Positions 2,905 through 25,770 of a stretch of DNA of 64,000 nt are shown here, in pieces. Location: contig NZ_CP154262.1 of NCBI RefSeq assembly GCF_039529835.1, positions 3,534,001 through 3,598,000 of the forward strand. The letters run 5' to 3'. The DNA is from Arthrobacter sp. TMP15. GTDB lineage: Bacteria > Actinomycetota > Actinomycetes > Actinomycetales > Micrococcaceae. The notes beneath the pieces were generated by a model. The model was not told the DNA's origin and searched no databases. It saw only the letters and a program-made list of their open reading frames with translations. Made by a program: the position numbers and the translations under genes. Numbering within the stretch: the stretch's first letter is position 1; the number at the start of each line of letters is the position of its first letter.

Positions 2905-2935
2905 GGTGCTGACTTTCAGCGCCGTGGTTGGTTCC

Positions 2936-8439: not shown

Positions 8440-8532
8440 GTTCCCCACTGTAGGACAAATTCGCAGGGATGTGGACTGACCACACCCTAAGTTGTTAAAA
8501 GCCTCGCGAATTTGGGCTTTACGTGGGTCCCG

Positions 8533-9627: not shown

Positions 9628-9636
9628 GGCGTCAGT

Positions 9637-10743
9637 CTACTTTCGAACGGGACCGACCGTCAGGAAAGGTGAACGCTCGGCCTTGAACAGTTTGGCGATG
9701 AGCTTAGGATCCACGATTTCGGTCCGGATCACCTCGCTCAGGGCCTGCGCCGTGGTGGCCGTCCCAGTCCGCCGTCGAACTTCTTTACGCAACTCATCCA
9801 GTACCGCATCAGAGAGAATCATCTCCAGCAGCACTCCCGGCTCGGTGGCCGCGCGGTGCCGCCACACTTCGTCAATACGGCGCCGCTTCAGCGCCTCCTT
9901 GTGCAACAAGAACATCATTTCGGTTTTTTCTGCCAGAGATGCCGGCCCCAACAGATCCACTTCAAAGGCCATATCAACCACAACCGGTAGGCCGCCTGTG
10001 AGGTGGTAGGCCTGCCACACCGCCCCGTTGGTGAGAACCATCCACTCCACGCCTTCGTTGACCGCATACATCAGGACTTGACGCAGGTGGCGTTCATTGA
10101 GTTTCTGGCTAATCCGCTTGACTTCAATGAAGGCCACCATTTGTTTGTCTATACGGACCCCGTAATCCGCAAAGTCCGCCTTCACCATGTATTCGGTGGT
10201 GAGATCCTTAAATTTGTCATAGTCCAAGCCCTCGCACAGCATGTCAGTGACAACCATTCGGGTGTCACCTTCATTGGCGTCGCGAGCCCGCAACGCTTCA
10301 AGCGGCTTGATGTACCGCTTGATGGCATCGTGGACCTGCTCAATTGCTGCAATCTCCCATTTGGGCATCCGAACTGCGGGTGCAGAGGTTGCTTGCGCTG
10401 GGTGACTCGCCGGCTCATTTGTTACTTGGGCAACTTTGTCTTCAGGCACGACGGCGGGCGGTGCAGTTTCGCTGCAGGCAGGCGTACGTAGCTCATCTGG
10501 CAGGTGCAGATGCGGGTCAGCAACACCAAAAGCCGCTTGTTTGAGCATCCAACTGATGGTGGGTTCCCACAGCTGGATCAAGTCTGCACCCGCCCCGTCG
10601 ATAGCAACTATCTTGGTGCGCGCAATGGATTCCAAATGGTGGCGATCCGGTGCCTGGCCACCGGTGCTGGCGAGCTCTTCGGCCCACCGCATCAGAATAT
10701 CGAGCCTGTTTTGACCTTTAGCGTCAAGCGAAATCTCATTCAT
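9637..10743 (-). CDS. HsdR_N-like (predicted type IV restriction nuclease) protein, solitary
   Basis: A 368-residue protein whose central region (about 135-255) matches the HsdR_N / COG2810 type of PD-(D/E)xK nuclease: a VTDMLCEGLDYD helix, then ADFADYGVRID (D193) and VAFIEVKR (E207, K209), then RQVLMYAVNEGVEWMVLTNGAVWQAYHL. The D and ExK residues form the catalytic pattern. Residues 85-125 are a Pro/Ala-rich linker. No helicase, methylase or specificity subunit is nearby, so it is not part of a complete restriction system here. Whether it cuts DNA or has been reused is unknown. Confidence 0.75.
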   Translation of the reverse strand: MNEISLDAKGQNRLDILMRWAEELASTGGQAPDRHHLESIARTKIVAIDGAGADLIQLWEPTISWMLKQAAFGVADPHLHLPDELRTPACSETAPPAVVPEDKVAQVTNEPASHPAQATSAPAVRMPKWEIAAIEQVHDAIKRYIKPLEALRARDANEGDTRMVVTDMLCEGLDYDKFKDLTTEYMVKADFADYGVRIDKQMVAFIEVKRISQKLNERHLRQVLMYAVNEGVEWMVLTNGAVWQAYHLTGGLPVVVDMAFEVDLLGPASLAEKTEMMFLLHKEALKRRRIDEVWRHRAATEPGVLLEMILSDAVLDELRKEVRRRTGTATTAQALSEVIRTEIVDPKLIAKLFKAERSPFLTVGPVRK

Positions 10744-11004
10744 TACTCAAAACCCCCGTTTCTTTGCAAGCCTAGGGCACTCCTAGGCTCATGAGGACGC
10801 GTAAGGCAGTATGGTGTTGCAACTTCGCAGATCAAAATGGAACTTTCTCCGGCTCCCAACCATTAGGCATATATAAGGTGAATGGAGATAATTGACTTTG
10901 AACGATCCGCGCGTGAGCTGTCGGGCCGCGTGCGGCTGTACCCACTTTGACCACAAATCCCTGGTGCACATCCGACAGGGAGCTTTTGAGGAGATTTTCA
11001 GCGC
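10744..11004. other. Divergent intergenic region before the Ter operon
   Basis: A 261-bp stretch between the HsdR_N-like gene (minus) and terC (plus). It must hold both promoters. An AT-rich patch around 10866-10900 (CATATATAAGG, then ATAATTGACTTTG) is the likeliest promoter area for the Ter operon, but no clear -35/-10 pair could be fixed. GAGGAG at 10988-10993 is the terC ribosome site. Confidence 0.45.
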
Positions 11005-12123
11005 GTGTTCATGAAAACTTTTGGCTGGTCCTTCGGGATCACCGCGGTGGCACTGGTTGTCGCCTACTTCTACGGCGGCTTTCAAGCCCTGATCCTTTGC
11101 GCCATTCTGGGTGTTTTGGAGATCAGTCTCAGTTTTGACAATGCTGTAGTGAACGCGCGAATTCTAGAAAAAATGAACGAGTTCTGGCAGAAAATCTTCC
11201 TCACGGTGGGTATTCTCATCGCCGTTGTTGGCATGCGCGTGGCATTCCCCTTGTTGATTGTGGGCGTCACCGCCAACCTAAACCCGGTGGAAGCCATTAA
11301 ACTCGCCTTGGAAAAGGGCGACATCCACACTGCCGGCAGCTACGCCTACCTGCTCCATGATGCCCACCCCCAGATTGCCGCATTTGGTGGCGTCTTCCTG
11401 CTCATGCTGTTCCTTGATTTCATGTTTGAAGAGCGCGAGATCCACTGGCTGGGGTTCCTGGAAAAGCCACTGGCGGTTATTGGCCGCCTGCACGGCGCCT
11501 CCATGGCAATCGCCCTGCTCATCCTCGTCGCCTCAGCCGTCATGGTCCGCCCGGGCAAAGAAGTGGATGTGCTTATTGCCGGCATCTTGGGCATGATTAC
11601 TTATGTACTCGTAAACGGACTTGGTGACATGTTTGACGTTGACGGGGACGGTGAAACCGATGCCCAAGATACCGACGCAACAGCGGCAAAAATTGCGAAG
11701 AAAGCCAATAAAGGCGTCGGCAAGGCTGTTGGTAAAGCTGCTTTCATGTTGTTCCTGTACTTGGAAGTCATCGACGCATCGTTCTCATTCGACGGCGTTA
11801 TTGGCGCCTTCGCCATCACCTCCGACCCCATCATCATCGCCTTGGGCCTTGGTTTGATCGGCGCTATCTTCGTCCGATCACTGACCGTGTTCCTCGTGCG
11901 TGAAGGCACACTCGATGACTTTGAATACTTAGATCATGGTGCACACTGGGCCATCGGTGCACTCTCCGTCATCCTTCTATTGACCATTAGCTTCGAAGTC
12001 AATGAAGTTATCACCGGAGTTATTGGCCTTGTCTTCATTGGCGCCGCCTTCATATCCTCAATTGTTCGAAACAAACGCGCAGCTGCGGCCGATTCACACA
12101 GGGTGGAACAACTCTCCAGCTAG
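11005..12123 (+). CDS. terC: TerC/DUF475-type integral membrane protein
   Basis: A polytopic membrane protein (about eight or nine hydrophobic segments, 372 residues) of the DUF475 branch of the TerC superfamily. The paired signature motifs are present: SLSFDNAVVN at 41-50 and DASFSFDGVIGAF starting at 257, whose acidic residues lie within membrane segments and are thought to handle metal ions. Between them, near residue 211, a cytoplasmic loop reads DVDGDGETDAQD and resembles an EF-hand calcium loop. The GTG start has a GAGGAG ribosome site 11 bases upstream; an ATG six bases on is less well spaced. First gene of the Ter operon; TerC-type proteins are proposed to anchor TerD proteins at the membrane. 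Confidence 0.88.
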   Translation: MFMKTFGWSFGITAVALVVAYFYGGFQALILCAILGVLEISLSFDNAVVNARILEKMNEFWQKIFLTVGILIAVVGMRVAFPLLIVGVTANLNPVEAIKLALEKGDIHTAGSYAYLLHDAHPQIAAFGGVFLLMLFLDFMFEEREIHWLGFLEKPLAVIGRLHGASMAIALLILVASAVMVRPGKEVDVLIAGILGMITYVLVNGLGDMFDVDGDGETDAQDTDATAAKIAKKANKGVGKAVGKAAFMLFLYLEVIDASFSFDGVIGAFAITSDPIIIALGLGLIGAIFVRSLTVFLVREGTLDDFEYLDHGAHWAIGALSVILLLTISFEVNEVITGVIGLVFIGAAFISSIVRNKRAAAADSHRVEQLSS

Positions 12124-12160
12124 CGCATCCACAATATATTTTTTAAAGGAGCACAACACT

Positions 12161-12754
12161 ATGGGACTTAGTTTGCAAAAGGGCCAAACCCTTTCACTGA
12201 AGAAGAACGACGGCGCTTCCCTCACCCGGGTGCGGATGGGCTTGGGCTGGGATACTGCAGCCCCCGTCAAGCGCGGACTGTTTGGTGGCCTGAAGAAGGC
12301 TCCCGATGTTGATTTAGACGCTTCGGCCATTTTCTTTGACGGCAGCGGCAAGGCCGTTGACACGGTGTTCTTCAACCAGCTGCAGAGTAAAGATGGCTCC
12401 ACTAAGCACACAGGCGACAACCTCACCGGTGAAGGCGACGGCGATGACGAGACCATCTTGGTAGACCTGTCAAAAGTCTCTCCCGCTGTTTCCCAGATTG
12501 TGTTTGTCATTAGCAGCTACAGCCGCCAGACCTTCGACACCATTGAAAACGCGTTCTGCCGCCTTGTGGATGATTCAACGGCCGGCACCCCCGAGGTTGC
12601 CCGGTTCCAGCTGACCGATGCGGGCACCCACACAGCCATGATCATGGCCAAGGTCTCCCGTGAAGACTCAGGCTGGAAGTTCACGGCCATTGGTGAGCGT
12701 GCCAACGGCCGCACGGCAATGGACTTGATCCAGCCGGCAGCCAACGCCCTGTAG
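12161..12754 (+). CDS. TerD-family calcium-binding stress protein (copy 1)
   Basis: TerD-domain protein of 197 residues. The start is the ATG at 12161, preceded by AAAGGAG; an in-frame start at 12002 would overlap terC. The domain's two acidic calcium-binding stretches are intact: VDLDASAIFFD (residues 50-60) and TGEGDGDDE (89-97). A family-typical MGLGWD precedes them at 26-31. It differs from the next two copies by an insertion, KRGLFGGLKKAP (residues 37-48), and by a C-terminus rich in Ala, so it is a distinct paralogue. TerD proteins act in tellurite, phage and oxidative stress responses, and some bind calcium tightly. Confidence 0.93.
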   Translation: MGLSLQKGQTLSLKKNDGASLTRVRMGLGWDTAAPVKRGLFGGLKKAPDVDLDASAIFFDGSGKAVDTVFFNQLQSKDGSTKHTGDNLTGEGDGDDETILVDLSKVSPAVSQIVFVISSYSRQTFDTIENAFCRLVDDSTAGTPEVARFQLTDAGTHTAMIMAKVSREDSGWKFTAIGERANGRTAMDLIQPAANAL

Positions 12755-12835
12755 GGTATCGCCCAACGCATTTGGTTTTATTTATTAGCGCGTCTTAGCA
12801 ATTCACGTCTTCGTTATTAAAGGAGTTCAGTTTCC

Positions 12836-13417
12836 ATGGCATCTTTGACACTATCCAAGGGCGGCAACCTTTCCCTGACCAAGGCAGACCCCGGTCTGCA
12901 GATGGCCATGGTGGGATTAGGCTGGGATCCACGCACCACCAGCGGCGATCAGTTCGATCTGGACGCATCGGCCATTTTGGTCACAAGCAGCGGCAAAGTC
13001 CGCAACAATGACGACTTCATTTTCTACAACCAGTTGGAGTCCAAGGATGGCTCAGTTGTTCACCAGGGTGACAACCGCACAGGTGAAGGCGACGGCGACG
13101 ACGAGCAGGTCCTCATCAACCTGGCAACAGTTTCCCCGGAAATTGAGCGTGTGGTCATTGTAGTTTCCATTGACCAGGCGGAAGCCCGCCACCAGAACTT
13201 TGGCCAGGTCCGCGACGCATACTGCCGCGTCGTCAACCAGAGCAACGAGCAAGAGATTGTTCGCTACGACCTCTCCGAGGATGCGGCATCGGAAACAACT
13301 ATGGTCTTCGCTGAGATTTACCGCAACGGCGCAGAATGGAAGTTCCGCGCAGTTGGTCAAGGCTACGCCAGCGGCCTGCACGGCATTGCAACTGACTACG
13401 GAATTGTTCTGGACTAG
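12836..13417 (+). CDS. terD: TerD-family calcium-binding stress protein (copy 2)
   Basis: A 193-residue canonical TerD protein. It has the N-terminal LTLSKGGNLSLTK, the GLGWDPR motif at 27-33, the acidic FDLDASA at 40-46, and TGEGDGDDEQ at 82-91, plus the C-terminal GYASGLHGIATDYG. The ribosome site AAAGGAG lies just before the ATG. It is very similar to copy 3, so the pair probably arose by tandem duplication. It is separated from copy 1 by 81 bp and from copy 3 by 84 bp containing a strong hairpin. Confidence 0.95.
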   Translation: MASLTLSKGGNLSLTKADPGLQMAMVGLGWDPRTTSGDQFDLDASAILVTSSGKVRNNDDFIFYNQLESKDGSVVHQGDNRTGEGDGDDEQVLINLATVSPEIERVVIVVSIDQAEARHQNFGQVRDAYCRVVNQSNEQEIVRYDLSEDAASETTMVFAEIYRNGAEWKFRAVGQGYASGLHGIATDYGIVLD

Positions 13418-13424
13418 TTCCACT

Positions 13425-13453
13425 GCTGGTGGGCGGCTCAGCCGCCCACCAGC
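13425..13453 (+). terminator. Intercistronic hairpin between terD copies 2 and 3
   Basis: A perfect 13-bp GC-rich stem (13425-13437 with 13441-13453) around a 3-base loop, eight bases after the terD copy 2 stop. There is no T-run after it and the operon clearly continues, so it is more likely an mRNA-stabilising or partial attenuating structure than a full terminator. Confidence 0.7.
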
Positions 13454-13501
13454 CACTGCTTTACCAACCACCGGACATCCACAATGTAAGGACTAGATTT
13501 C

Positions 13502-14083
13502 ATGGCTGGACTCACGCTTGCAAAAGGCAACAACCTTTCTTTGACCAAAACCGATCCGGGCCTGCAGAAAGCACTCGTTGGTTTGGGCTGGGATCCGCGC
13601 ACCACCACAGGTGAGGCTTTTGACCTCGACGCGTCCGCGCTGCTCGTTGGAGCCACGGGCAAGGTCCGCTCAGGTGATGACTTCATCTTCTACAACCAGC
13701 CAGCTGCCAAGGACGGTTCAGTCACCCACCTTGGTGACAACCGTTCGGGCGAAGGTGACGGCGATGACGAGCAGATTCTGATCGACCTCGCCAAGATCGC
13801 CGCAGATGTTGAGCGCGTAGTCATCGTTGTCTCCATTGACCAGGCAGATGTGCGCGGACAGAACTTCGGTCAAGTCCGCGGAGCTTACTGCCGTGTGGTC
13901 AACCAGGGCAGCGAACAAGAAATTGTTCGTTTTGACCTCAGCGAGGATGCTGCGCCGGAAACCTCCATGCTGTTCGCAGAAATTTACCGCAACGGCACCG
14001 AATGGAAGTTCAAAGCAGTGGGCCAGGGTTACGCCTCCGGCCTGGCCGGAATTGTTGCCGACTTCGGTGTCCCGATGGGCTAA
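13502..14083 (+). CDS. terD: TerD-family calcium-binding stress protein (copy 3)
   Basis: A 193-residue TerD protein, close paralogue of copy 2. It starts MAGLTLAKGNNLSLTK and keeps GLGWDPR (27-33), FDLDASA (40-46) and SGEGDGDDEQ (82-91), as well as the C-terminal GYASGLAGIVADFG. All acidic residues expected to bind calcium are present. AAGGAC upstream is a plausible ribosome site. With two canonical and two divergent TerD proteins in one operon, the products may form mixed assemblies. Confidence 0.95.
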   Translation: MAGLTLAKGNNLSLTKTDPGLQKALVGLGWDPRTTTGEAFDLDASALLVGATGKVRSGDDFIFYNQPAAKDGSVTHLGDNRSGEGDGDDEQILIDLAKIAADVERVVIVVSIDQADVRGQNFGQVRGAYCRVVNQGSEQEIVRFDLSEDAAPETSMLFAEIYRNGTEWKFKAVGQGYASGLAGIVADFGVPMG

Positions 14084-14170
14084 TCCCCAGTTCCTCCCAA
14101 GCGGAGCCGCTGACACGTGTCCACTCGGGCCCGAACCTGTGAGCCCACCATCAGTTATTGCGTTGGTGAC

Positions 14171-14208
14171 AGTCCGCCGCCACAGCCTCTTGGGTGTGAC
14201 GGCGGACT
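14171..14208 (+). promoter_or_regulatory. Hairpin in the terD-telA gap
   Basis: A 14-bp stem with one mismatch (14171-14184 with 14195-14208, core GTCCGCCG/CGGCGGAC) lies 53 bases before the telA start, in a 178-bp gap that is the longest in the operon. It may attenuate or process the transcript, or mark where a second promoter drives telA and the distal genes. Confidence 0.5.
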
Positions 14209-14261
14209 TCGCCCGTAAATCACCACCAGCTACCCTTGCTACTGGAAAATTGGATATCACA

Positions 14262-15455
14262 ATGACTTCACCACTAACACCCCCCACTGAATCCGAAACA
14301 GCGCTTGTTTTGAAGGCTCCGGACGCCCCTGACATTGTTGTGGCCGACGAAGCTCCCGGCATGGTTCCCGTTCCTGCGGAACGTCAGAGCGAAATCAACC
14401 GTCAGGCCAAAGAATACATCGCCGAAATAGCGGCCTTTGATGCGCGCAGCCCCGAGTTCACCACCAAAGTAGATGGCATTAGCAAGCTCGCCGGCAATGA
14501 AATGACCAACTCAGCAGGCGCCTCAAGCCGTATGCTGGAGCGCTCGTCAACGTCAGTCTCCGGAGCTAAAAAAAGTGGCAATAGTGCCCAGGCCCAGGTC
14601 GCTGGCACGCTAAACGATCTGCGCTCAACCGTTGAAGACCTGACGCCCAATAACGCCGATCTTAGTGTGGGCCGGAAAATTCTTGGTTTCATCCCTGGCG
14701 GCAACAAGCTGGCAAAATATTTTCAAAAGTACGAGTCAGCGCAGACCCAAATTGATGCCATTATCAAGTCGCTCATGACCGGTCAGGATGAACTCCTGAA
14801 GGACAATGCCTCGCTGGCCGGGGAAAAGGTCAAGCTATGGGAAACCATGCAGAGCTTAAGTGAATACGCAGTGTTCGCCAAGGCCTTGGATGGCGCCTGT
14901 GTTGAAAAAATTGACGCCACGCGCGCTTCAGGCCAGATTGAGCAGGCCCAAAAGCTTGAAGCCGATGTCCTTTTCCCCATTCGTCAGCGCCACCAAGACA
15001 TCCTGACTCAGCTTGCAGTCTCCGTGCAGGGCTACCTGGCCATGGATCTGATCCGCAAGAACAACCTTGAGCTCATCAAGGGCGTTGACAGGGCCCGCAC
15101 CACCACCATTTCTGCGCTTCGCACCGCCGTGATCGTGGCCCAGGCACTGGCCAACCAGAAGATGGTTCTTGATCAGATTGATGCCATCAACACCACCACG
15201 AATAACATGATCCTGAAAACTTCTGAGATGCTCAAGGATCAGACAGTACGTATTCACCAGCAAGCCTCCAGCTCCGGAGTCAGCGTTGAAACGTTGCAGA
15301 AGGCCTTCGACAACGTGTTTGAGACCATGGATGCCATTGATACGTTCCGGGCTTCGGCAGCCAAGAACATGGAAGGAACCGTGAACGCGCTGGAGAGTGG
15401 ATTGGCTAAGGCCAAGCCGTACCTGGAGCGTTCACGCCAGTCTGAACGGGAGTAG
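14262..15455 (+). CDS. telA: TelA-like toxic anion resistance protein
   Basis: A 397-residue soluble, mostly helical protein of the TelA family, found with Ter genes in many bacteria and linked to resistance to tellurite and some toxins and antibiotics. Recognisable segments are LSVGRKILGFIPGGNKLAKYF (residues about 140-160), a long heptad-rich helix region, and RQRHQDILTQLAVSVQGYLAMDLIRKNN, which is diagnostic. The start chosen is the ATG at 14262; the frame is open upstream but only into terD-overlapping sequence. No strong ribosome site is visible. The biochemical activity of TelA is unknown. Confidence 0.92.
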   Translation: MTSPLTPPTESETALVLKAPDAPDIVVADEAPGMVPVPAERQSEINRQAKEYIAEIAAFDARSPEFTTKVDGISKLAGNEMTNSAGASSRMLERSSTSVSGAKKSGNSAQAQVAGTLNDLRSTVEDLTPNNADLSVGRKILGFIPGGNKLAKYFQKYESAQTQIDAIIKSLMTGQDELLKDNASLAGEKVKLWETMQSLSEYAVFAKALDGACVEKIDATRASGQIEQAQKLEADVLFPIRQRHQDILTQLAVSVQGYLAMDLIRKNNLELIKGVDRARTTTISALRTAVIVAQALANQKMVLDQIDAINTTTNNMILKTSEMLKDQTVRIHQQASSSGVSVETLQKAFDNVFETMDAIDTFRASAAKNMEGTVNALESGLAKAKPYLERSRQSERE

Positions 15456-15490
15456 CCTAGAACGTACGACGACGAAGCAAGGGTTATGCA

Positions 15491-16048
15491 ATGATTGGCC
15501 GTTTTGTGGGGGGCATGTTTGGCGGTGGTGCCGCACAGCAGCTTCCTGACCGCCCCGCAGTTGATCCAGTGGCAGAGGAAATCTCCCAGATGGGTGCCGC
15601 TGTAGATACTCTGCGCGCTGCCGTGCGCAGGTCTGGAAGCAAGCTGCCACCATTATTGACGTCCCAGCTACGTCATTTAGGGGATCTCATGCGCGTCACA
15701 GTTGCCGACATCAGTGTGCGGGGCTGTTCTACGGAGCAACGAGTGTTGCTGAACGCAATGATTTGTAGTTATGTTCCCACCCCGTTGCAGGCGTATCTGG
15801 GGCTACCACCCTCACATCACGATGAGGAGTCCCCTGCCACGTTTTTGTTTGCCGAGCAGCTGGCAACCCTTGAACAAACCCTTGCGGATCTGCTCAATCA
15901 GATTCGCATCGGCGCAGTGGAGGAACTCTCCACACACGGACGCTTCCTGGCGGATAAATTCTCCGAGCAGGACGCTGCCTTGCAACTTCACCAACCAGTT
16001 TCAGAAAGAGACCCATTGCGTTTGGAGGGCCAAAGTTGGCAGCATTAG
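15491..16048 (+). CDS. Uncharacterised protein of the Ter operon
   Basis: A 185-residue protein I do not recognise. It starts with a Gly-rich segment (MIGRFVGGMFGGGAAQQ), then is helical and soluble with no membrane segment. Residues about 30-150 look like a helical bundle (VDTLRAAVRRSG, LPPLLTSQLRHLGDLMRVT, FLFAEQLATLEQTLADLLNQI). It begins 36 bp after telA and its end overlaps the start of the divergent TerD gene by 13 bp, so it belongs to the operon. A partner of TelA is a reasonable guess from position alone. Confidence 0.7.
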   Translation: MIGRFVGGMFGGGAAQQLPDRPAVDPVAEEISQMGAAVDTLRAAVRRSGSKLPPLLTSQLRHLGDLMRVTVADISVRGCSTEQRVLLNAMICSYVPTPLQAYLGLPPSHHDEESPATFLFAEQLATLEQTLADLLNQIRIGAVEELSTHGRFLADKFSEQDAALQLHQPVSERDPLRLEGQSWQH

Positions 16049-16587
16049 TGGCGGGGGCGAATGCCGCCCTGACGGCTGAGAATCCCGGTCTTGACCACGT
16101 CTTAGTGGGCATGGGCTGGGACACCATCCCCAGTAACGGACCCCAAGCTGAGTTGGTTCCTTTCGCCCTCATGTGTGGTGCGGATGGCAGGGCCGTTTCC
16201 AACGAGCACTTGGTGTTTTTTAACCAGTTGGTCAGCGCCGATTCCTCAGTCACGTTCATCGGTGATGGGGATCAAGAACAAATTGATGTTGCGCTAAGCC
16301 AGGTACCTGAGGACATTACCAAGATCATTTTCTTGGTCTACGTGGATCCTGAATTTCGTGGGCAAGGCACTTTTGCGGCTGTACGCAGCGCCCATATCCG
16401 GGTTGCAACAGCGGATAACCGTGAGTTGGTGCGCTTCGATCTTTCGGCCGTGAAGCTTGAGACTGTCACGGCCATGATCTTTGGTGAGCTGTACAGGCAC
16501 CGCTCCGACTGGAAGTTTCGGGCACTGGGTCAGGGCTACAGCACAGGGTTGGCTGGAGTGGCCAAGGACTACGGAATCAGGCTGTAG
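16036..16587 (+). CDS. Divergent TerD-like protein lacking part of the acidic sites
   Basis: A 183-residue TerD-domain protein with the family's framework: VGMGWDTIP, HLVFFNQLVSADSSV, KIIFLVYVD, and a C-terminal GQGYSTGLAGVAKDYGIRL. The two calcium motifs have eroded: FDLDASA is replaced by LVPFALMC, and GEGDGDDEQ is shortened to GDGDQEQ. It is therefore unlikely to bind calcium as the canonical copies do. The TTG start has GGAGGG upstream and overlaps the previous gene, suggesting coupled translation. It may be a structural or regulatory partner in TerD assemblies. Confidence 0.82.
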   Translation: MAALVAGANAALTAENPGLDHVLVGMGWDTIPSNGPQAELVPFALMCGADGRAVSNEHLVFFNQLVSADSSVTFIGDGDQEQIDVALSQVPEDITKIIFLVYVDPEFRGQGTFAAVRSAHIRVATADNRELVRFDLSAVKLETVTAMIFGELYRHRSDWKFRALGQGYSTGLAGVAKDYGIRL

Positions 16588-16596
16588 AGCCATCCC

Positions 16597-17397
16597 ATGA
16601 ATGTTTCCTCGAATCCACGTACTGATCTACCCTTTCTGCGCCGCCGGATCAAACCTGGCCGGGGTCAAGCGGACACGCCAGCCACTGCTCAAAGTGCTGC
16701 CTCAAGTCCAGCTGCGTCGTTGTCCTTAGCACCAAGCTCACCCGCTCGGACGCCCTCTGTGCCAGCCCAGCGTTCGGCAGGTTTGAATCTGCGGGCCAAC
16801 GCCCCGTCGTCGTCTACTAGCGCACGCATGCAAAAGCTGGAGGCTCAACGGGAGAAAGCTGGCCGGGAAGACCACGAGGTCCAGTTGCTTTTTAAGGCTC
16901 CTGGAATAGCGGAGGTATTTGAGCTCAATCTCGATGAGCGGGTGCTCCGGCTATCCCCCCTTGAATCCGCGGTTGGCACCATGGTGATCGGTGGCAGCAC
17001 AGCCGTCGCGTGGGAAAGTGTGCGCCATGTGACGGGTGGACAAACAGTTGACGGACACAAAGCCGGCTCTCCCGTTATGACATCTGGTAACCGTGAACTA
17101 GTGGCCTACCAAGGCAGAGATGTCCTAATCACCCTGCGTCATGTACGTGAGCTTCGACGTGCGATCTTCATCAATCGCAGCAGCGCCGCAATGGGCGTCA
17201 GGCTACTGACGGGACAAACCGTGGCACTGCCTCCGGCCGCTGACGGTACCCAGATTGTTCTGCTTGTGCATAGAGTTGGCAATGTGCTGGAGCTACGGGC
17301 GGAGCCCGTTCCGCACGACTGGCCTGACAACACGATTTGGCAGGAATTCGATTTTTCCATGACCCACAAAGCACCAGCCTCTGCCTACGGGCGTTAA
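16597..17397 (+). CDS. Uncharacterised Ter-operon protein with disordered N-terminus
   Basis: A 266-residue protein not assigned to a named family. Residues 1-75 are basic and Ser/Ala/Pro-rich, probably disordered. Residues about 90-255 appear to be a compact beta-rich domain (VQLLFKAPGIAEVFELNLDE, VLITLRHVRELRRAIFINR, IVLLVHRVGNVLELRAEP), with strand rhythm loosely resembling TerD-type domains but without their motifs. It starts nine bases after the divergent TerD stop, so it is in the same transcription unit. It could be a TerA-like accessory protein; this is a guess. Confidence 0.68.
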   Translation: MNVSSNPRTDLPFLRRRIKPGRGQADTPATAQSAASSPAASLSLAPSSPARTPSVPAQRSAGLNLRANAPSSSTSARMQKLEAQREKAGREDHEVQLLFKAPGIAEVFELNLDERVLRLSPLESAVGTMVIGGSTAVAWESVRHVTGGQTVDGHKAGSPVMTSGNRELVAYQGRDVLITLRHVRELRRAIFINRSSAAMGVRLLTGQTVALPPAADGTQIVLLVHRVGNVLELRAEPVPHDWPDNTIWQEFDFSMTHKAPASAYGR

Positions 17398-17407
17398 ACG
17401 TCCCTCC

Positions 17408-17445
17408 CAGCGGGACAGCACAGCGGGACAGCACAGCGGGAAAAA
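17408..17445. repeat. 13-bp tandem repeat upstream of the CitE-like gene
   Basis: Nearly three copies of a 13-bp unit (CAGCGGGACAGCA) lie in the 90-bp gap between the 266-residue protein and the lyase-like gene. The role is unknown; slippage here would change the spacing within the operon leader but no coding frame. Confidence 0.7.
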
Positions 17446-17487
17446 CAGTCGGAAAGTAGTGCCTCAGCCAGCAGTTCGAAAGGACCC

Positions 17488-18681
17488 ATGCGACATTTTC
17501 GTTCCTTGAGCCCCGCTCAAACCGGCGCTCTTTTTTATCGCCTACCCGTTGAGCTGACGGCGCACAGTGCCCCCGAGCTTCTTGCAGTGGGGTTGGGTGG
17601 GACGTTGTACACGCCGGCAAATCGACCGAATCTGGTCAAGGATGTGCTGCGACAGCGCGACTTTGGCTGTGTTTCCATGGTGCTGTGCCTGGAGGATTCA
17701 ATTCCTGACGGTGATGTTCTTAGCGCCGAAGAAGGAGTCATCTCGGCTCTTTCCACCCTGGCCTCCCGCGGCGAAAGCCTGCCGTTACTTTTTGTTCGGG
17801 TCAGAACACCGGAGCAAATGCTCTCGGTGGCGCGCCGGGCAGGTGCTGCAACAGAAGTGTTGACGGGTTTTGTGATTCCGAAGTTTGATAACGAATCTGG
17901 GGTCGCCGCCGCATTCCTGGATGCCCTGCACATCATTCAGGCTGAGTTGGGTCTTGACGGGGACTCACCAGGGGCAGGTGCTCCGCGGCACAGATTACGC
18001 ATTATGCCCATCCTGGAATCTTCGGCCGTCATCCATCTGGAAAGCCGTGCTGCGGCACTAACAAACATTTACACGCTACTGGCCGCCAACCGCAGGGACA
18101 TCTTGTCCGTCCGGATCGGTGCCACTGACATGTCAAGCGCCTTTGGTTTGCGCCGCTCCCGTGACCTCACCATTTACGACGTCAATGTCGTAGCGGGGGT
18201 CATTGGGGACATTGTCAATGTGCTGGGCAGGCCTGACGGTGGCTTTGTTATCTCCGGACCTGTCTGGGAGCACTACTCCAATACCGAGCGGGTGCTGCGT
18301 CCTCAATTGCGGACCACACCCTTCGCCCGGCCAGAGGAGCAGGAACTGCGCCAACGCATCATGACGGCTAACTTGGACACCCTTATCCGCGAGATTGAGC
18401 TGGATTTGGCCAACGGTTTGCTGGGAAAAACCGTCATTCACCCCACCCACGTGGCGTTGGTGCATGCCCTGAGCGTTGTCAGCCATGAGGAATACCTCGA
18501 TGCGCTGGCCATTGCCGACAATGTGAACGGTGGTGCCGCGGCCTCCCCGTACGGCAACAAAATGAATGAAATGAAACCGCATCAGGCTTGGGCGCAACGG
18601 ACTTTGCTGCGTGCGGATGCCTTTGGTGTCTCCGCACCCAACGTCACGTTCGTAGATCTTCTGGAAGCGAGCATGGCATGA
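17488..18681 (+). CDS. HpcH/HpaI-CitE-like C-C lyase of the Ter biosynthetic block
   Basis: A 397-residue TIM-barrel protein of the HpcH/HpaI aldolase and citrate lyase beta superfamily. Characteristic elements: LYTPANRPNLVKDVL near residue 41, MVLCLEDSIPDGD near 70, the metal-binding acid in MPILESSAVI, and the second in SVRIGATDMSSAFG. It is longer than CitE because of an extended C-terminal part. GAAAGGA precedes the ATG. Its stop overlaps the next gene by 4 bp. Similar proteins occur in Ter-linked enzyme clusters in other bacteria, where they are predicted to act on a small carbon unit attached to a nucleoside-like molecule. Confidence 0.85.
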   Translation: MRHFRSLSPAQTGALFYRLPVELTAHSAPELLAVGLGGTLYTPANRPNLVKDVLRQRDFGCVSMVLCLEDSIPDGDVLSAEEGVISALSTLASRGESLPLLFVRVRTPEQMLSVARRAGAATEVLTGFVIPKFDNESGVAAAFLDALHIIQAELGLDGDSPGAGAPRHRLRIMPILESSAVIHLESRAAALTNIYTLLAANRRDILSVRIGATDMSSAFGLRRSRDLTIYDVNVVAGVIGDIVNVLGRPDGGFVISGPVWEHYSNTERVLRPQLRTTPFARPEEQELRQRIMTANLDTLIREIELDLANGLLGKTVIHPTHVALVHALSVVSHEEYLDALAIADNVNGGAAASPYGNKMNEMKPHQAWAQRTLLRADAFGVSAPNVTFVDLLEASMA

Positions 18682-20231
18682 GCATCTCCCAACAGCGTCC
18701 CTGGTCCGGCGATTTCGTTGCAGATCAGCTCGATGTGGCCATCCACAGTGACCCTCAGAGTGCCGTGGCAGTGCAAGATTTGGTCGGTTTGGCCCTCCGC
18801 CGCAATCCCAAGCGCGCCCATCTGCTGGTCTCCGCCGTTTTGGCGAAACACGTGCCCACCGAGCCCGCTTTAGTGATGGCTGCCGGTGAACTGCTGGGTG
18901 CCTTCGTGGCCAGTGAATTAGCGCTCATGCCGGACGACGGCGGCCACCCCCGGACGCTTCCGGCCACCGGAGAGTCCTCCCTCACCACCGCGGCTGCGCA
19001 GTTGAGCGCTGTCCTACAGGGTTCACCAGGGAAGCGGCACTCGGCTATCGCAGCCTTCGCGGAAACGGTGGCCGGGCTGCGAACAGTGGTGACCGACGCC
19101 GTCGTTCTTGGGTATGCCGAAACCGCCACCGGGCTAGGGCGCCTGGTGGCAAACTCATTGGGTGCCTACTATCTTCATTCCACCCGCCACGCCACGCCGT
19201 CAGTTGTTCCTGTGGCGGGTTTTGAGGAAGGGCACTCGCACGCCACCTCGCATGCTTTGGTTCCTACCGATCCGCATTGGTTGGATGGCAATGGGCCGGT
19301 TATTTTGGTGGACGATGAACTCAGCACGGGCTCAACTGTCATTAACACCATTCGTGAGCTGCACGCCTTGGTGCCGCACGCGGTGTACGTTATTGCGGCA
19401 TTGATTGACCTTCGCAGCAGCAGTGATCGTGCGCGTTTTGATGCTCTGGCGACGGAACTGGATTGCAAGATTGCAGTGACGGCGCTGGGGAAGGGCCGGG
19501 TTGAGTTAGCGCCGGATATTCTTCCTAGAGCCGCCGAGCTCATTCAACGGTTGCAACCCCCGGCTTCCGTTAGCCCAGTGCCTGCCGCTAATCCCAAACC
19601 GGCGGGGCGCCTGTCTGTGCTTGAACTTTCCTCGGAAGACCTTACGCCCGTGCGCAGCGACCGTTTTGGCAACATCAGCCCACCCAATGCTGCTGACATT
19701 GACGTCATTGCCAAGGCGCTGTCCCACCTGGTGGGCACGCATAAGTGTCAAGGACCGCTGGTGGTGCTGGGTTGCGAGGAAAACATGTTCCTACCGCTGG
19801 CGGTGGCCAATACGTTGGCGAGTTTGCTGCCAGCTGGGGATGTGAGGTTCTCCACCACCACGCGATCCCCTATTGTTGCGCTCGATCAGTCTGGTTACGC
19901 CATTGCCGGCGCCCTCAGCTTTGCCAGCCATGACCTCACTCATGACGGGCCGGGCATTCGTTTTGCTTACAACCTCAATGGAACCGGCCAGCGCCCAGGT
20001 ACTATTGTGGTCTTTCCCGAGCCGGGGACCAGCCGCGAAGATGTCCTGACGGGTAGCACTACGCCTGATCGCCCCGGTGCCGGACTCCAGCCGCTGGGAC
20101 TTGCCCTGGCGGGGATAGCCGATGACGTCGTTCTCGTTTTGCTGCCGGTCGATACCCCTGTGCGCGGCAACCAACCCGCCAACATTCACAGCAGCATTCC
20201 CAGCAGCATTGATACAGAGGTCACGCCATGA
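18678..20231 (+). CDS. Phosphoribosyltransferase with C-terminal TRSP domain (Ter-associated)
   Basis: A 517-residue two-domain enzyme starting at the ATG overlapping the lyase stop. Residues about 20-290 are a type I phosphoribosyltransferase fold with the PRPP-binding motif VILVDDELSTGST near 208-220. The C-terminal part (about 320-500) contains a literal TTTRSPI at about 393-399, the signature of the TRSP domain found with Ter-linked PRTases. A Pro/Ala linker joins them. It presumably transfers phosphoribose to a base or forms a nucleotide-like intermediate. It overlaps both neighbours by 4 bp. Confidence 0.85.
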   Translation: MSISQQRPWSGDFVADQLDVAIHSDPQSAVAVQDLVGLALRRNPKRAHLLVSAVLAKHVPTEPALVMAAGELLGAFVASELALMPDDGGHPRTLPATGESSLTTAAAQLSAVLQGSPGKRHSAIAAFAETVAGLRTVVTDAVVLGYAETATGLGRLVANSLGAYYLHSTRHATPSVVPVAGFEEGHSHATSHALVPTDPHWLDGNGPVILVDDELSTGSTVINTIRELHALVPHAVYVIAALIDLRSSSDRARFDALATELDCKIAVTALGKGRVELAPDILPRAAELIQRLQPPASVSPVPAANPKPAGRLSVLELSSEDLTPVRSDRFGNISPPNAADIDVIAKALSHLVGTHKCQGPLVVLGCEENMFLPLAVANTLASLLPAGDVRFSTTTRSPIVALDQSGYAIAGALSFASHDLTHDGPGIRFAYNLNGTGQRPGTIVVFPEPGTSREDVLTGSTTPDRPGAGLQPLGLALAGIADDVVLVLLPVDTPVRGNQPANIHSSIPSSIDTEVTP

Positions 20232-21397
20232 GCACTTCTCCCCTTCCCTCCGCTCTCACCGGGCCGGACTTTGGCTCCTATGCGGCGCAGGACGTCTCCT
20301 GGCTGCTCAAGGATTTAAGCCACTTGGCTTTGGAGGCCCCCACAGCTGAGCGCGAGCGCGCCATTCAGTCCGGGGCGGCAAATTACGCCGAATCGCTGCC
20401 GGTGGAATACTCGCCCAGTGCGGAATATCAGGGGCTGTATCAGCAAGCAGTTGAACGCTCGGGTGAGCGGATTGCCACGGCGGTTGGTGTTGTGAGCGAG
20501 CTGGCTCTGGCGGCCCGGAACAACCAGCCGGTTCTGGTCTCCTTGGCGCGCGCAGGCACCCCGATCGGCATTTTGATGCGCCGCTGGGCTTTGCAAACTC
20601 ACGGTGTGGACCTGGCGCATTTCACCATGAGCATTGTTCGCGGAGTTGGTCTGGATAAGACTGCCTTGCATTACCTGGCAGCACATTTTGATCCGGAACG
20701 GATCCTTTTTGTGGACGGCTGGACGGGCAAGGGCGCCATTTCACGCGAGCTAACAGCGGCCCTCGATGACTTTGCCGCTGAAACCGGTATCCGTTTCCCG
20801 GACGATCTGGCCGTGCTTGCCGATCCCGGGCATTGCGTATCAATGTTTGGCACCCGGGAGGACTATCTGATTCCCTCAGCCTGTCTGAACTCCACGGTGT
20901 CCGGGCTGGTCTCGCGCACCGTATTCAACGTGGAACACATTGGCCCGCAGGACTTTCACGGGGCAAAGTTCTACTCAGAGCTTGCCCCCAATGATGTGTC
21001 AAATGACTTCATCACTGCCATCTGTTCCCACTTTGATCGGGTGGGGCCGGAGGTCGAGCGCCAGCTCGCGTCCCACCGCGCTGCTGACCCGGCGCCGAGC
21101 TGGATTGGCTGGGATGCCGTGGAGCAAATCAGCACAAAGTACGGAATCAATAACGTCAATCTCGTCAAGCCCGGCGTTGGCGAAACCACGCGGGTGCTGC
21201 TGCGCCGGGTGCCATGGCGGGTGCTGGTCAATCCGGGCGCCAAGGGCGATATTGCCCACGTTCTGCTCCTGGCCGCCCAACGCGGCACCCCGGTGGAGGA
21301 AGTGCCGGATCTGCCCTATAGTTGCGTTGGTTTGATCCATCCGCAGTTCGATAAAAGCGCTGTGGGCGCGGATGGCAAGGCAGTGCATAACGCATGA
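20228..21397 (+). CDS. PRTase-PELOTA RNA-binding fusion (Ter-associated)
   Basis: A 389-residue protein of the PRTase_1/PELOTA_1 type. Residues about 65-260 hold a divergent phosphoribosyltransferase with VLVSLARAGTPIG (102-114) and a PRPP-loop equivalent ILFVDGWTGKGAI (159-171). The C-terminal 75 residues (VNLVKPGVGETTRVLLRRVPWRVLVNP, then HVLLLAAQRGTPVEEVPDLPYSCVGLIHP) match the PELOTA RNA-binding domain related to ribosomal L7Ae. The fusion suggests an RNA-linked substrate or sensing step. Some databases label relatives as StiP cysteine proteases; the PRTase reading fits the motifs better. Confidence 0.83.
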   Translation: MSTSPLPSALTGPDFGSYAAQDVSWLLKDLSHLALEAPTAERERAIQSGAANYAESLPVEYSPSAEYQGLYQQAVERSGERIATAVGVVSELALAARNNQPVLVSLARAGTPIGILMRRWALQTHGVDLAHFTMSIVRGVGLDKTALHYLAAHFDPERILFVDGWTGKGAISRELTAALDDFAAETGIRFPDDLAVLADPGHCVSMFGTREDYLIPSACLNSTVSGLVSRTVFNVEHIGPQDFHGAKFYSELAPNDVSNDFITAICSHFDRVGPEVERQLASHRAADPAPSWIGWDAVEQISTKYGINNVNLVKPGVGETTRVLLRRVPWRVLVNPGAKGDIAHVLLLAAQRGTPVEEVPDLPYSCVGLIHPQFDKSAVGADGKAVHNA

Positions 21398-22215
21398 GCA
21401 CCTCAACGCTGGTGGCCTGCGACCTCGACAGAACTCTCATCTACTCCAAAAATGCGCTGTGGCTAACGGGGGCTGACAAGGATGCTCCGGCCCTGGTTGT
21501 TGCCGAAGTGTATGAGGGCGCCCCATTGTCCTTCATGACCTGCGCTGCCAAGGAACTCCTGCTCAGTGTGAAAGCTGCCGCCACGTTTGTTCCGGTCACC
21601 ACCCGCACACAGGCCCAGTATGAACGTGTGCAGTTGCCCGGTGCCGTGCCCAACTATGCCATTACCTCCAATGGCGGGGTGCTCTTGCACCGGGGCATCC
21701 CTGATGCGCTTTGGCATGAACAGCTTTCGGCACGGATGGCGGCTGGCTGCGCGCCCGTAGAAACAATTGACGCTTATCTATCCAAACCCGATTTTGCGTC
21801 GTGGATCCTGCGTGTGCGCCGCGCCGAAGACCTCTTTGTCTACGCCATCATTGACCGCGAGGCTATGCCCGATTCCTTCTTGGTAGAACTGATGGCGTTG
21901 TGCGCCGACGCTGGCTGGAGCGTTTCGGTTCAGGGCCGGAAACTTTATTGTGTACCGCTGCCTATTAACAAGACGGACGCGCTGGCAGAGGTTGCCCGCC
22001 GCACCGGTGCCGGCACTGTCATCGCAGCCGGAGATTCTCTGCTGGATCAAGGCATGTTGGAGCACGCCGATCTCGCCTACCGTCCCCTCCACGGTGAATT
22101 GCACGACGCCGGCTACTCCGCCACCCACCTTCGTCTCACCTCCGTGCGCGGCGTTATGGCTGGGGAAGAAATCCTGCGCAGCATCCTGGCTGAACTCCCC
22201 TCCCCACCCCGTTGA
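21394..22215 (+). CDS. HAD-superfamily hydrolase (Ter-associated)
   Basis: A 273-residue HAD phosphatase with all four motifs: nucleophile motif DLDRT (D10, D12), motif II VPVTTRT (about 66-72), the lysine in PINKTDALAEV, and motif IV AAGDSLLDQGM (about 211-221). A C2-type cap lies between. It overlaps the PRTase-PELOTA gene by 4 bp and ends the operon; a long hairpin follows. The likely role is to remove a phosphate from the PRTase product, releasing a nucleoside-like compound; substrate unknown. Confidence 0.87.
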   Translation: MSTSTLVACDLDRTLIYSKNALWLTGADKDAPALVVAEVYEGAPLSFMTCAAKELLLSVKAAATFVPVTTRTQAQYERVQLPGAVPNYAITSNGGVLLHRGIPDALWHEQLSARMAAGCAPVETIDAYLSKPDFASWILRVRRAEDLFVYAIIDREAMPDSFLVELMALCADAGWSVSVQGRKLYCVPLPINKTDALAEVARRTGAGTVIAAGDSLLDQGMLEHADLAYRPLHGELHDAGYSATHLRLTSVRGVMAGEEILRSILAELPSPPR

Positions 22216-22297
22216 GGTTGGAGATAACCCCCTTCCCCGACGCTGAGATTGGAGATAAACACCAACCTCCGGTTGGTGTTTATCTCCAATCTCAGCG
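22211..22297. repeat. Perfect 27-bp palindrome plus partial copy, end of Ter operon
   Basis: Arms 22241-22267 and 22271-22297 form a perfect 27-bp inverted repeat around a 3-base loop. Its core TGAGATTGGAGATAA matches a partial copy TTGAGGTTGGAGATAA immediately upstream (22212-22227) and the palindrome that the insertion sequence split near 2000. There is no T-run. It could end the Ter transcript, but the similarity between loci points to a dispersed palindromic repeat. Confidence 0.9.
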
Positions 22298-22521
22298 GGG
22301 TGGATGTGCGGGGCGGGCGCAAAGCGCGGGGGTGAGGGCGGGGCGCGGAGGTGCGGTACGTGGTGGATGTAACGCGGTAGCGGTGAGGGTCAGGAGCTGC
22401 CAGGGCCACGAAGTGTCAGGGACATCAGGAGCGGCCTTCCTAGAGCTAGTGTCATAGTTTCTTTACCCCTACCGGTATGCTCAAGTCGTACTGATCACTT
22501 TGAGCCTGGGGGCACTGCGTC
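22298..22521. other. GC-rich intergenic region
   Basis: No gene seen. The first 80 bases are strongly G-rich on this strand (GGGGCGGGCGC and similar). The stretch near 22455-22500 should hold the promoter of the following lipoprotein gene; GGGGG about 11 bases before the TTG start may aid ribosome binding. Confidence 0.4.
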
Positions 22522-23646
22522 TTGTCTAAATCCCGTCCTACCCGCACGCTGGGCGCCACCGATTTCATTGTGGGCTCGGCACTAGCCTCCGTCCTTTTCT
22601 TAACAACAGCATGTGGGGGCGCTGCGGCACCCCAGGTGGTTCCGGCGTCGAGCACTCCAACGGTAAGCGCTTTGGCGATTGAAACACCCCAGCCTTCCTC
22701 TTCGGCCAATGATGCAACTCCGCTAGACAGTGACGGCGTCATCGACGCAGGTGATGCTGATCTGGCCTCACACGTGCAGCCACCGTTTGCCACCAAGGCC
22801 TTGGAAGTGCTCAAAACCCTGCCGATCAAGGGGCGGGCTCCAAAGACCGGTTACAGCCGCAGTGAATTTGGGCAGGCGTGGGCTGATGTGGATAGGAATG
22901 GTTGCGATACTCGCAACGACATCTTGAATAGGGACTTGAGTGCCAAAACGTTCAAGCCAGGCACACGCGACTGCCTGGTCCTCACGGGGGTTCTAGCCGA
23001 TCCATACACGGCCAAGACCATCGATTTCATCCGGGGGTCAGCGACAAGCAGTGCTGTTCAGATAGATCATGTTGTTGCCCTGAATGATGCGTGGCAGAAG
23101 GGTGCCCAGCAGCTCACGGTTGCCCAACGTACAGCCTTTGCCAACGATCCTTTGAACTTGTTGGCCGTTGATGGTCCAAGCAACCAGAAGAAGGGCGCCG
23201 GTGACGCGGCCACTTGGTTGCCGCCCAATAAGAGTTTTAGATGTGATTACGTAGCCAGGCAGATCTCGGTCAAGGCGACCTACACTTTATGGGTGACTCA
23301 GGCTGAGCATGATGCCATGGCGCGGGTTCTGGAGGGTTGCGTTGATATTTCAGCGCCAACCAACCAGACTGCCGCCCCGGTTGAACCCGCGGCCGCCGAG
23401 CCAGCTCCGGTGGTCCCGGTGATCCCCGTGGAGGCAGCTATTGTGGCTCCTATTGAAGCCCCCGTTCAGGTGGCTCCGCCAGCAGCGCCCCCGGTCCCCG
23501 CTCCGGCCCCTCCTGTCTCGGCGCCAGAACCTTACTACCAGAACTGTTCAGCGGTCAGAGCAGCAGGAGCGGCGCCAATCCATATTGGCCAGCCGGGTTT
23601 TCAGGCTAAGTTCGATCGCGACGGCGACGGCGTGGGCTGTGAATAA
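22522..23646 (+). CDS. Secreted lipoprotein with HNH/GmrSD-type nuclease and Excalibur domains
   Basis: A 374-residue exported protein. The N-terminus is a lipoprotein signal with lipobox LTTAC (C31). Residues about 100-265 form an HNH nuclease of the DUF1524 type: DVDRNGCDTRNDILNRDL, then IDHVVALNDAWQKGA (D182, H183 catalytic), then ANDPLNLLAVDGPSNQKKGAGDA and WLPPN. A 75-residue Pro/Ala/Val-rich linker follows. The C-terminal Excalibur domain (YYQNCSAVRAAGAAPIHIG, DRDGDGVGCE) has a calcium-binding DxDxDG loop. Such proteins are cell-surface nucleases thought to use extracellular DNA. The TTG start is the best available but not certain. Confidence 0.88.
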   Translation: MSKSRPTRTLGATDFIVGSALASVLFLTTACGGAAAPQVVPASSTPTVSALAIETPQPSSSANDATPLDSDGVIDAGDADLASHVQPPFATKALEVLKTLPIKGRAPKTGYSRSEFGQAWADVDRNGCDTRNDILNRDLSAKTFKPGTRDCLVLTGVLADPYTAKTIDFIRGSATSSAVQIDHVVALNDAWQKGAQQLTVAQRTAFANDPLNLLAVDGPSNQKKGAGDAATWLPPNKSFRCDYVARQISVKATYTLWVTQAEHDAMARVLEGCVDISAPTNQTAAPVEPAAAEPAPVVPVIPVEAAIVAPIEAPVQVAPPAAPPVPAPAPPVSAPEPYYQNCSAVRAAGAAPIHIGQPGFQAKFDRDGDGVGCE

Positions 23647-23721
23647 CGGGCGGCCGGCCCGAAAGTAAAAGAGGAATACTGCGCAGCTGGCAACTACCGG
23701 TGGATTAGCTAAAATTGATAT

Positions 23722-24129
23722 GTGAGCTCTCGCAGCGACAAGCCTCTGGTCCCAGCCGTGTGGCAGCGCCATGACACGGTCATTTTGCCGTTGTGGCGTG
23801 AGCGGCTGTGCCTGGAAATGGGTGAGGTAGCGGCCGCCCGCTACTGTGCAGGGCTGTTTTTCGAGGACAGGCGTAGACCAATCGCCCAGTGGTTTAACCC
23901 GGCACTGAACGCGGCGCTGTTGGTTGGGATTGAGACTTCTGCGGAGTGGCCAGTTCAACGCTTTGGGTTGTTCTACGCCCCGGCGGGCGGTGGAGTGCTC
24001 AAAGTTCATATGACCACCCATGAGTGGTTCACCCGCACACCACAGAAGTCTCCCACTGAAGAAGAAGCCTTTGTGGGCGCCATCATCTCAGCTGAAGCAT
24101 TCCTGCAAGTGGAGATGAACTTTATTTAG
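23722..24129 (+). CDS. Conserved-looking hypothetical protein, 135 residues
   Basis: Not recognised. A soluble protein with no signal peptide or membrane segment; it contains WFNPALNAALLVGIETSAEWPVQRFGLFYAPAGGG and a C-terminal helix. The GTG start has no ribosome site, but a TAAAAT hexamer at 23709-23714 lies seven bases upstream, so the message may be leaderless, which is common in actinobacteria. The gene converges on lysE. Confidence 0.6.
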   Translation: MSSRSDKPLVPAVWQRHDTVILPLWRERLCLEMGEVAAARYCAGLFFEDRRRPIAQWFNPALNAALLVGIETSAEWPVQRFGLFYAPAGGGVLKVHMTTHEWFTRTPQKSPTEEEAFVGAIISAEAFLQVEMNFI

Positions 24130-24139
24130 TTCATGCCGA

Positions 24140-24766: not shown

Positions 24767-24830
24767 TGAAACTACTAGCCTTACATCAGGTGGTACAGCT
24801 AATTATTCTATTGATACCTAAGGAAATCTA

Positions 24831-25718: not shown

Positions 25719-25770
25719 AACGCTACTGTAGATACAAGATCTCCCCAACACCACCCGCTAGGATAAACGC

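Follow-up and report, generated by a model that had tools for sequence, protein, structure and literature searches.

We analyzed a 64,000-nucleotide stretch of DNA from Arthrobacter sp. TMP15 (contig NZ_CP154262.1, positions 3,534,001 to 3,598,000; hereafter the window, in whose own numbering all coordinates are given), focusing on a Ter stress operon that adjoins a block of predicted biosynthetic enzymes. Open frames and Pfam profiles delimit a same-strand array of twelve genes at 11005-22215 (+ strand), in the order DUF475/TerC, three TerD genes, TelA, u185, a fourth TerD gene, u266, a C-C bond lyase, a phosphoribosyltransferase (PRTase) gene named PRTase_2-TRSP, StiP-PELOTA_1 and a HAD-like gene. 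Gene order, strand, coordinates and families agree with a preliminary description made from the sequence; its count of eleven genes was one short of the actual twelve, to which its own list also adds up.

The array begins with a TerC-type membrane protein of the DUF475 family (11005-12123, alternative start ATG at 11011), which matches PF04332 at E 5.8e-122 and PF03741 at E 1.3e-15. The next three genes encode TerD proteins (PF02342) at 12161-12754 (E 4.3e-50), 12836-13417 (E 2.8e-81) and 13502-14083 (E 5.7e-78), each with the acidic loop GEGDGDDE; the start of the first was picked by similarity, the first ATG of its open frame being at 12002. For TelA (14262-15455; PF05816, E 2e-87), whose open frame extends further upstream, the ATG was picked by comparison with relatives, and counted from this start the gap before TelA is the widest within the array (~178 bp). 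The TelA neighbor u185 (15491-16048), of 185 amino acids, belongs to no Pfam family. TerD4 (16036-16587; PF02342, E 1.3e-51) has a TTG start and an acidic loop shortened to GDGDQE, and u266 (16597-17397), a protein of 266 amino acids without known family, has a low-confidence N-terminal part and a predicted beta-rich C-terminal domain.

Four enzyme genes complete the array. The CitE-like C-C bond lyase (17488-18681; PF15617, E 5.6e-108) carries a GKTVIHP motif, and GKT-IHP, E177 and D214 are invariant in three divergent members of its family. It is followed by PRTase_2 fused to TRSP (18678-20231; PF15609, E 2.3e-61, and PF12500, E 1.3e-21), with VDDELSTGST and TRSP motifs, and by StiP fused to PELOTA_1 (20228-21397; PF11202, E 5.9e-101, and PF15608, E 1.2e-34); the matches of these three proteins are all above the curated Pfam cut-offs, and the TRSP and PELOTA domains named in the preliminary description are present. 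The last gene (21394-22215) had been called a HAD phosphatase, a reading that holds for its catalytic motifs, DxDxT and GDxxxD, but not for its profile matches, which stay below every Pfam cut-off (Hydrolase_3 at E 0.032 as the best, HAD at E 0.048, both weak).

The three junctions between the enzyme genes are exact 4-bp overlaps, at 18678-18681 (counted from an internal ATG of PRTase_2-TRSP at 18678), 20228-20231 and 21394-21397. The overlaps themselves are as previously described, but the fixed stoichiometry that had been read into them does not follow; they suggest coupled translation of the enzyme genes only. We compared the junctions in 101 loci, consisting of the best 80 of 593 confirmed relatives in named genomes (mostly Streptomyces) and 21 stretches from related genomes, some of which end at contig ends. 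Since the possible start nearest to a 4-bp overlap was picked, the counts are biased towards 4 bp. At the lyase-PRTase junction 39 loci have a 4-bp overlap, 52 a gap and three another overlap, with seven not scored; at the StiP-HAD junction the 4-bp overlap is found in 61, another overlap in 38 and a gap in two. Between PRTase_2-TRSP and StiP a 4-bp overlap occurs in 20 loci, eight are other or not scored, and in the remaining 73, two of them in the genus, both proteins share one open frame (75 at a laxer threshold), with PRTase_2-TRSP itself found in 99 of the 101. This single frame is good evidence that PRTase_2-TRSP and StiP work together.

Upstream of terC, an alignment of the window with 16 further copies from the genus contains, in the part displayed, one conserved block besides the ribosome-binding region. 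It is a bipartite promoter-like element, CCATTAGGnAT-N13-GGAGATAATTG, at 10860-10894 (+ strand). At up to three mismatches it is present once per genome in 17 of 23 genomes of the genus, with no hit for a reversed-pattern control. Of the other six, five have neither TerD nor StiP, and the sixth, G017, holds a divergent operon copy. In 16 of the 17 genomes with the element, its coordinates put it where the operon starts; the 17th is G291, for which no operon search was made. Counted per window of 36 columns in 16 rows (without the G017 copy), the element has 21 conserved columns, the neighboring spacer 5 and 3, and the ribosome-binding and start region 24. The best windows that lie wholly in the gap before TelA and in that before the lyase reach 6 and 8 conserved columns, higher scores there (10 and 21, respectively) taking in the end of the preceding gene, and no second comparable conserved promoter-like block was found before either gene in this alignment. 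A promoter scan places TAGGCA-17-GATAAT inside the element, one of four such sites against 3.8 expected by chance. On its simplest reading, the element would be a promoter or regulator site dedicated to the Ter operon. It lies, like a divergent nuclease-like gene at 9637-10743, outside the span of the preliminary description.

Other candidate control signals were discarded. A riboswitch or other RNA before terC was considered, but the only two Rfam matches under E 1 in 8000-26000 are both at 22160-22307 and far below the cut-offs, and neither yybP-ykoY nor any other Rfam family matches before terC at E 1. Where a stem-loop was seen by eye between TerD3 and TelA, the genus alignment shows no column conservation. 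The terminator scan found 10 sites against 12.9 expected by chance, so its calls are unusable.

TerD and enzyme genes adjoin each other in the window and in related loci. StiP was found in 22 of 98 related genomes and TerD in 24 (source genome included), and all 22 StiP genomes carry TerD; TerD without StiP is limited to two of the 76 StiP-less relatives (G031 and G068). In a sample of the phylum TerD occurs in 10 of 198 genomes and StiP in the identical ten. The complete overlap among relatives, together with the same ten genomes in the phylum, indicates that the pairing of TerD and StiP is not accidental. Strong lyase matches (E 4e-108 or better) follow the same distribution, being present in nine of the 198 genomes, all nine among the ten with TerD and StiP. 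Of 22 genomes of the genus, 17 carry TerD together with StiP, and the other five carry neither. The preliminary description had joined the Ter operon to a predicted nucleoside-like biosynthesis block and looked to relatives for co-occurrence of the two; the families and these counts bear it out. Most Micrococcales loci that are long enough keep the order of the window almost gene for gene, with the exception of L029, which has a 3.3-kb interruption, and of L052, L053 and L055, which have two TerD genes and no TerC found before TelA. Beyond chromosomal relatives, tblastn detected StiP in 2565 of 72,556 plasmid records, mostly enterobacterial, and in three phage records out of 50,697, of which two represent one phage.

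The history of the operon within the genus was followed with gene trees. On a tree of the rpoB region of 22 genomes, three changes of operon state are needed, at least two of them forced by well-supported branches, and this one-gene tree therefore suggests that the operon was lost or gained more than once. The tree omits G014, whose rpoB match is split, and G291 is labelled operon-bearing on it without an operon search, the element and the nuclease-like gene having been found there. Within the genus, the trees of StiP and of the lyase follow mostly vertical descent. G017 is divergent, and it groups with other genera in the lyase tree (support 88/87), not in the StiP tree. The five genomes of the genus without TerD and StiP (L139-L143) keep TelA at the site that the operon occupies elsewhere, between an ADA gene and LysE-LysR genes. 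In four of the five it lies between the ADA gene and a GmrSD_C gene, and in G010 after the GmrSD_C gene; no other operon gene was found in the stretch in any of them. Because TelA is kept where the operon is missing, it probably has a role of its own. In L140 and L141 a protein of 380-391 amino acids with a hydrophobic C-terminal end adjoins TelA.

For u185, no Pfam match better than E 0.02 was obtained in 22 members. Its relatives follow TelA in two Ter clusters of StiP-less genomes, L145 (E 1e-16) and L144 (E 7.6e-9), and judged by these comparisons u185 goes with TelA. The second of these clusters, in G031, contains TelA, the u185 relative, TerD genes, TerC and, as seen by eye, a PRTase-like frame at 10566-11501 of that locus. 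A shared YxPT stretch prompted a comparison of u185 with XpaC (PF10112), which was rejected at an hhalign probability of 0.7% against five XpaC-family sequences. Among the compared loci u266 occurs only in enzyme-bearing Micrococcales ones. The window protein has no Pfam match, with one weak match among 18 members, and its predicted structure (mean predicted local distance difference test, pLDDT, 72.3; predicted template-modelling score 0.57) has its best PDB match at E 0.045, so that neither a relationship to TerD nor a known fold could be assigned to it.

The gene divergent from terC (9637-10743, - strand) encodes an HSDR_N_2 nuclease-like protein with ExK and QxxxY motifs; its match to PF13588 (E 1.4e-5) is weak, the 25.6 bits barely exceeding the cut-off of 25. 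It was matched in 15 of 17 operon-bearing genomes of the genus (its own included), in G291, and in none of the five operon-less ones (Fisher one-sided p 8e-4, calculated without G291 and ignoring kinship). In 14 of these 16 genomes its coordinates place it next to the operon start or the element; of the other two, G008 has it on a separate contig and G020 ~19 kb away. The match crosses a stop codon in nine of the 16, often near the end, and three of these nine (G002, G011 and G001) have it in two pieces; the gene appears broken in some genomes. The gene is probably an associate of the operon and not essential to it, as judged from this distribution. Just downstream of the operon, at 22522-23646, lies a gene for a GmrSD_C and Excalibur protein, which is near the site in most genomes of the genus seen. 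Two frames at 2065-3406 (- strand) resemble, by eye, an IS3-type transposase pair.

The preliminary description reported neither an ATP-grasp gene nor TerB in the operon, and among the twelve operon proteins, to which the TerB search was limited, we likewise found no match to either at E 1. In the whole genome the ATPgrasp_Ter model gives two matches, one below the cut-off and one at 29.7 bits against a cut-off of 29.1; the latter covers 61 positions inside a 1124-amino-acid frame outside the operon. As the model matches 14 of 14 control genomes, it is not specific. With the Polaromonas ATPgrasp_Ter protein as a phmmer query, no relative was found at E 1 among frames of at least 60 amino acids in the 101 loci and eight further stretches, five of these from operon-less genomes and some of the 109 ending at contig ends. 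No ATP-grasp gene was seen in a Tsukamurella plasmid cluster. Clustering of unannotated frames was noisy because of the high G+C content, and part of the clusters was scanned. Absence of ATP-grasp is thus usual in the actinobacterial neighborhoods compared and not a loss special to this genome, and the "reduced or variant layout" of the preliminary description is not borne out. An ATP-grasp gene may act from elsewhere in the genome.

Taken together, we consider it fairly probable that the window carries one Ter stress operon belonging to the known biosynthetic type, whose enzymes are predicted to make a nucleoside-like molecule. This reading builds on the gene content, the co-inheritance of Ter and enzyme genes, the single frame that in many relatives encodes both PRTase-type proteins, and the one conserved element. 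In this operon, the element before terC would drive transcription of a membrane and metal module together with the four-enzyme line, the module comprising TerC, the TerD proteins, with acidic and probably calcium-binding loops, and TelA with u185. The CitE-like lyase would make or trim an acid, PRTase_2-TRSP would join a base-like group to ribose 5-phosphate from phosphoribosyl pyrophosphate (PRPP), and StiP-PELOTA, a second PRTase-like protein, may act with it as an RNA-binding partner. Removal of a phosphate by the HAD-like phosphatase would then yield a nucleoside-like signal or protectant, to which TerD or the membrane complex could answer. The order of reactions, lyase, PRTase, StiP and phosphatase, is taken from protein families and gene order, and this chemical course, in which we infer every reaction step as well as the product and its use, is tentative and somewhat doubtful.

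Several observations weigh against such a single biosynthetic operon. The co-occurrence counts ignore kinship, the StiP genomes representing four of 61 genera among the relatives and four of 148 in the phylum, and in G072 and G089 StiP and TerD are on different short contigs, where adjacency is not visible. The lyase family alone is found in 93 of the 198 phylum genomes at E 0.001 and is not Ter-specific. In Streptomyces loci TerD, TerC and the enzymes are present, but TelA, u185 and u266 are missing from the stretch, and a distant cluster (L146, genome G224) combines TerD and StiP with what by eye are PRTase and HAD frames, while neither a lyase nor an ATP-grasp gene was found within its stretch; the gene content of these loci implies that not all parts are needed. 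The single PRTase/StiP frame is also compatible with an internal start in the same frame, and the divergent operon copy of G017 lacks the element. According to a Klebsiella study, terZ-F alone confers tellurite resistance on E. coli MG1655 (PMC8115787). Beside the G224 cluster we observed AIM24-like proteins, a reading made by eye.

The identity of StiP bears directly on the enzyme line, as the block could instead serve regulated proteolysis, with StiP as a cysteine protease and a single phosphoribosyltransferase. PF11202 is labelled "cysteine protease StiP" in Pfam, plasmid records carry the annotation "cysteine protease StiP family protein", and 15 close actinobacterial members all share Cys219 and Cys366. 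However, no cysteine is invariant in six members, five of which have 27-65% identity to the window protein, whereas RAGxPxG and FVDGWT, a PRPP-loop-like motif, are. The lack of a family-wide cysteine together with this invariant motif makes the Pfam name look doubtful. The predicted structure of StiP is of medium confidence (mean pLDDT 73.9), and among the 50 Foldseek matches listed there is no cysteine protease, while 14 are PyrR or HGPRT phosphoribosyltransferases, at weak E-values of 0.009 or worse (PyrR matches: probability 0.75-0.96, template-modelling (TM) score by target 0.42-0.51). A further 28 of the 50 are enzymes dependent on pyridoxal phosphate, among them the only three listed hits under E 0.001 (TM 0.16-0.18, probability under 0.5). 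Among solved structures no sequence relative of StiP, PRTase_2-TRSP or the lyase was found at E 1. PRTase_1 is an earlier Pfam name of StiP. Both PRTase_1 and PELOTA_1 are among the domains listed in an E. coli survey, which refers to work of 2012 for a PRTase carrying PELOTA at its end (PMC5571608). We read StiP as PRTase-like with moderate confidence, the evidence from the fold being weak, and regard the protease alternative as quite improbable. Of the two phosphoribosyltransferases in the preliminary description, PRTase_2-TRSP stands by its profile match, and the second, named a protease in Pfam, may well have been read correctly.

Two other alternatives concern the use of the product. In an anti-phage system the enzymes would make an alarm nucleotide, upon which the Ter membrane complex would block entry or close the cell, with the nuclease-like gene as effector. 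The association of this gene with the operon fits such a role, as does phage ME3, which has TerD-like, PRTase, HAD and StiP genes; but the nuclease-like gene is missing in two of the 17 operon-bearing genomes and in nine of 16 genomes is matched across a stop codon, none of ten proteins tested (of thirteen) matches PADLOC models at E 0.01, and the operon occupies one conserved chromosomal site in most operon-bearing genomes of the genus with a StiP tree that is largely vertical. We therefore regard anti-phage defence as improbable. Somewhat closer to plausibility, if still on the unlikely side, is a metal, oxidative or envelope-stress operon whose enzymes make a metal-binding or protective small molecule and not a signal. 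Published studies report that Bacillus TerC proteins metalate exported enzymes (PMC10550928), that terC of Klebsiella contributes to tellurite and zinc resistance (PMC12054061) and that the Klebsiella ter operon aids envelope stability (PMC9933665), and the acidic loop kept in three TerD proteins would suit metal binding; against it, the Rfam search at E 1 gave nothing such as yybP-ykoY upstream of terC. A far more speculative model, which we hold to be very improbable, combines StiP and PRTase_2-TRSP into one RNA-handling enzyme, in which PELOTA would present RNA and the paired sites would exchange or release a base to give a diffusible stress signal for TerD and TelA to read, under one dedicated promoter and with TelA as an older, separately kept receptor.

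We regard the window operon as genuine and conserved, and as an ordinary representative of a kind already known. New here are the promoter-like element, the retention of TelA in five operon-less genomes, the single PRTase-StiP frame and the doubt on the protease name of StiP. Our searches of open-licence papers brought up none in which the product of Ter enzyme clusters is identified. The present copy is compact and chromosomal, lies on one strand downstream of one conserved promoter-like element and lacks an ATP-grasp step. The five TelA-keeping genomes without TerD and StiP form a natural control, equivalent to a deletion set. This layout and control make it a convenient place to ask for the product and the trigger of the enzymes; the operon eases testing of the product question without itself answering it.

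Clusters linking Ter genes to biosynthetic enzymes were reportedly predicted by Anantharaman, Iyer and Aravind in 2012, and the window array almost certainly belongs to them. It shares with them TerC, TerD, TelA, C-C_Bond_Lyase, PRTase_2-TRSP, StiP-PELOTA_1 and, going by its motifs, HAD, and differs in lacking ATPgrasp_Ter, which is frequent in such clusters but was not taken to define them, in forming a single same-strand array and in having u185 and u266. The cluster on plasmid pPNAP04 of Polaromonas naphthalenivorans (L130) likewise has DUF475-TerC, TerD proteins, PRTase, HAD, StiP and lyase; in contrast to the window it encodes ATPgrasp_Ter (E 6.7e-43), follows the order ATP-grasp, PRTase, HAD, StiP, lyase, and has no TelA annotated in the stretch. 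Streptomyces loci (e.g., L054) share TerD, TerC, lyase, PRTase, StiP and HAD, but in most of them PRTase and StiP form one frame, a divergent TerD gene precedes the lyase, and TelA, u185 and u266 were not found. In the Klebsiella plasmid ter locus, as described in the study cited above, Ter genes also stand beside a putative biosynthetic cluster, there as two operons on opposite strands, unlike the one strand and one conserved promoter-like element of the window, and the link between the biosynthetic cluster and the TerC complex is called unclear (PMC8115787). A jumbo-phage survey presents Ter systems as a combination of signal synthesis, ligand binding and membrane response (PMC7824862). The window array fits this scheme: one strand carries both halves, and one conserved element precedes them.

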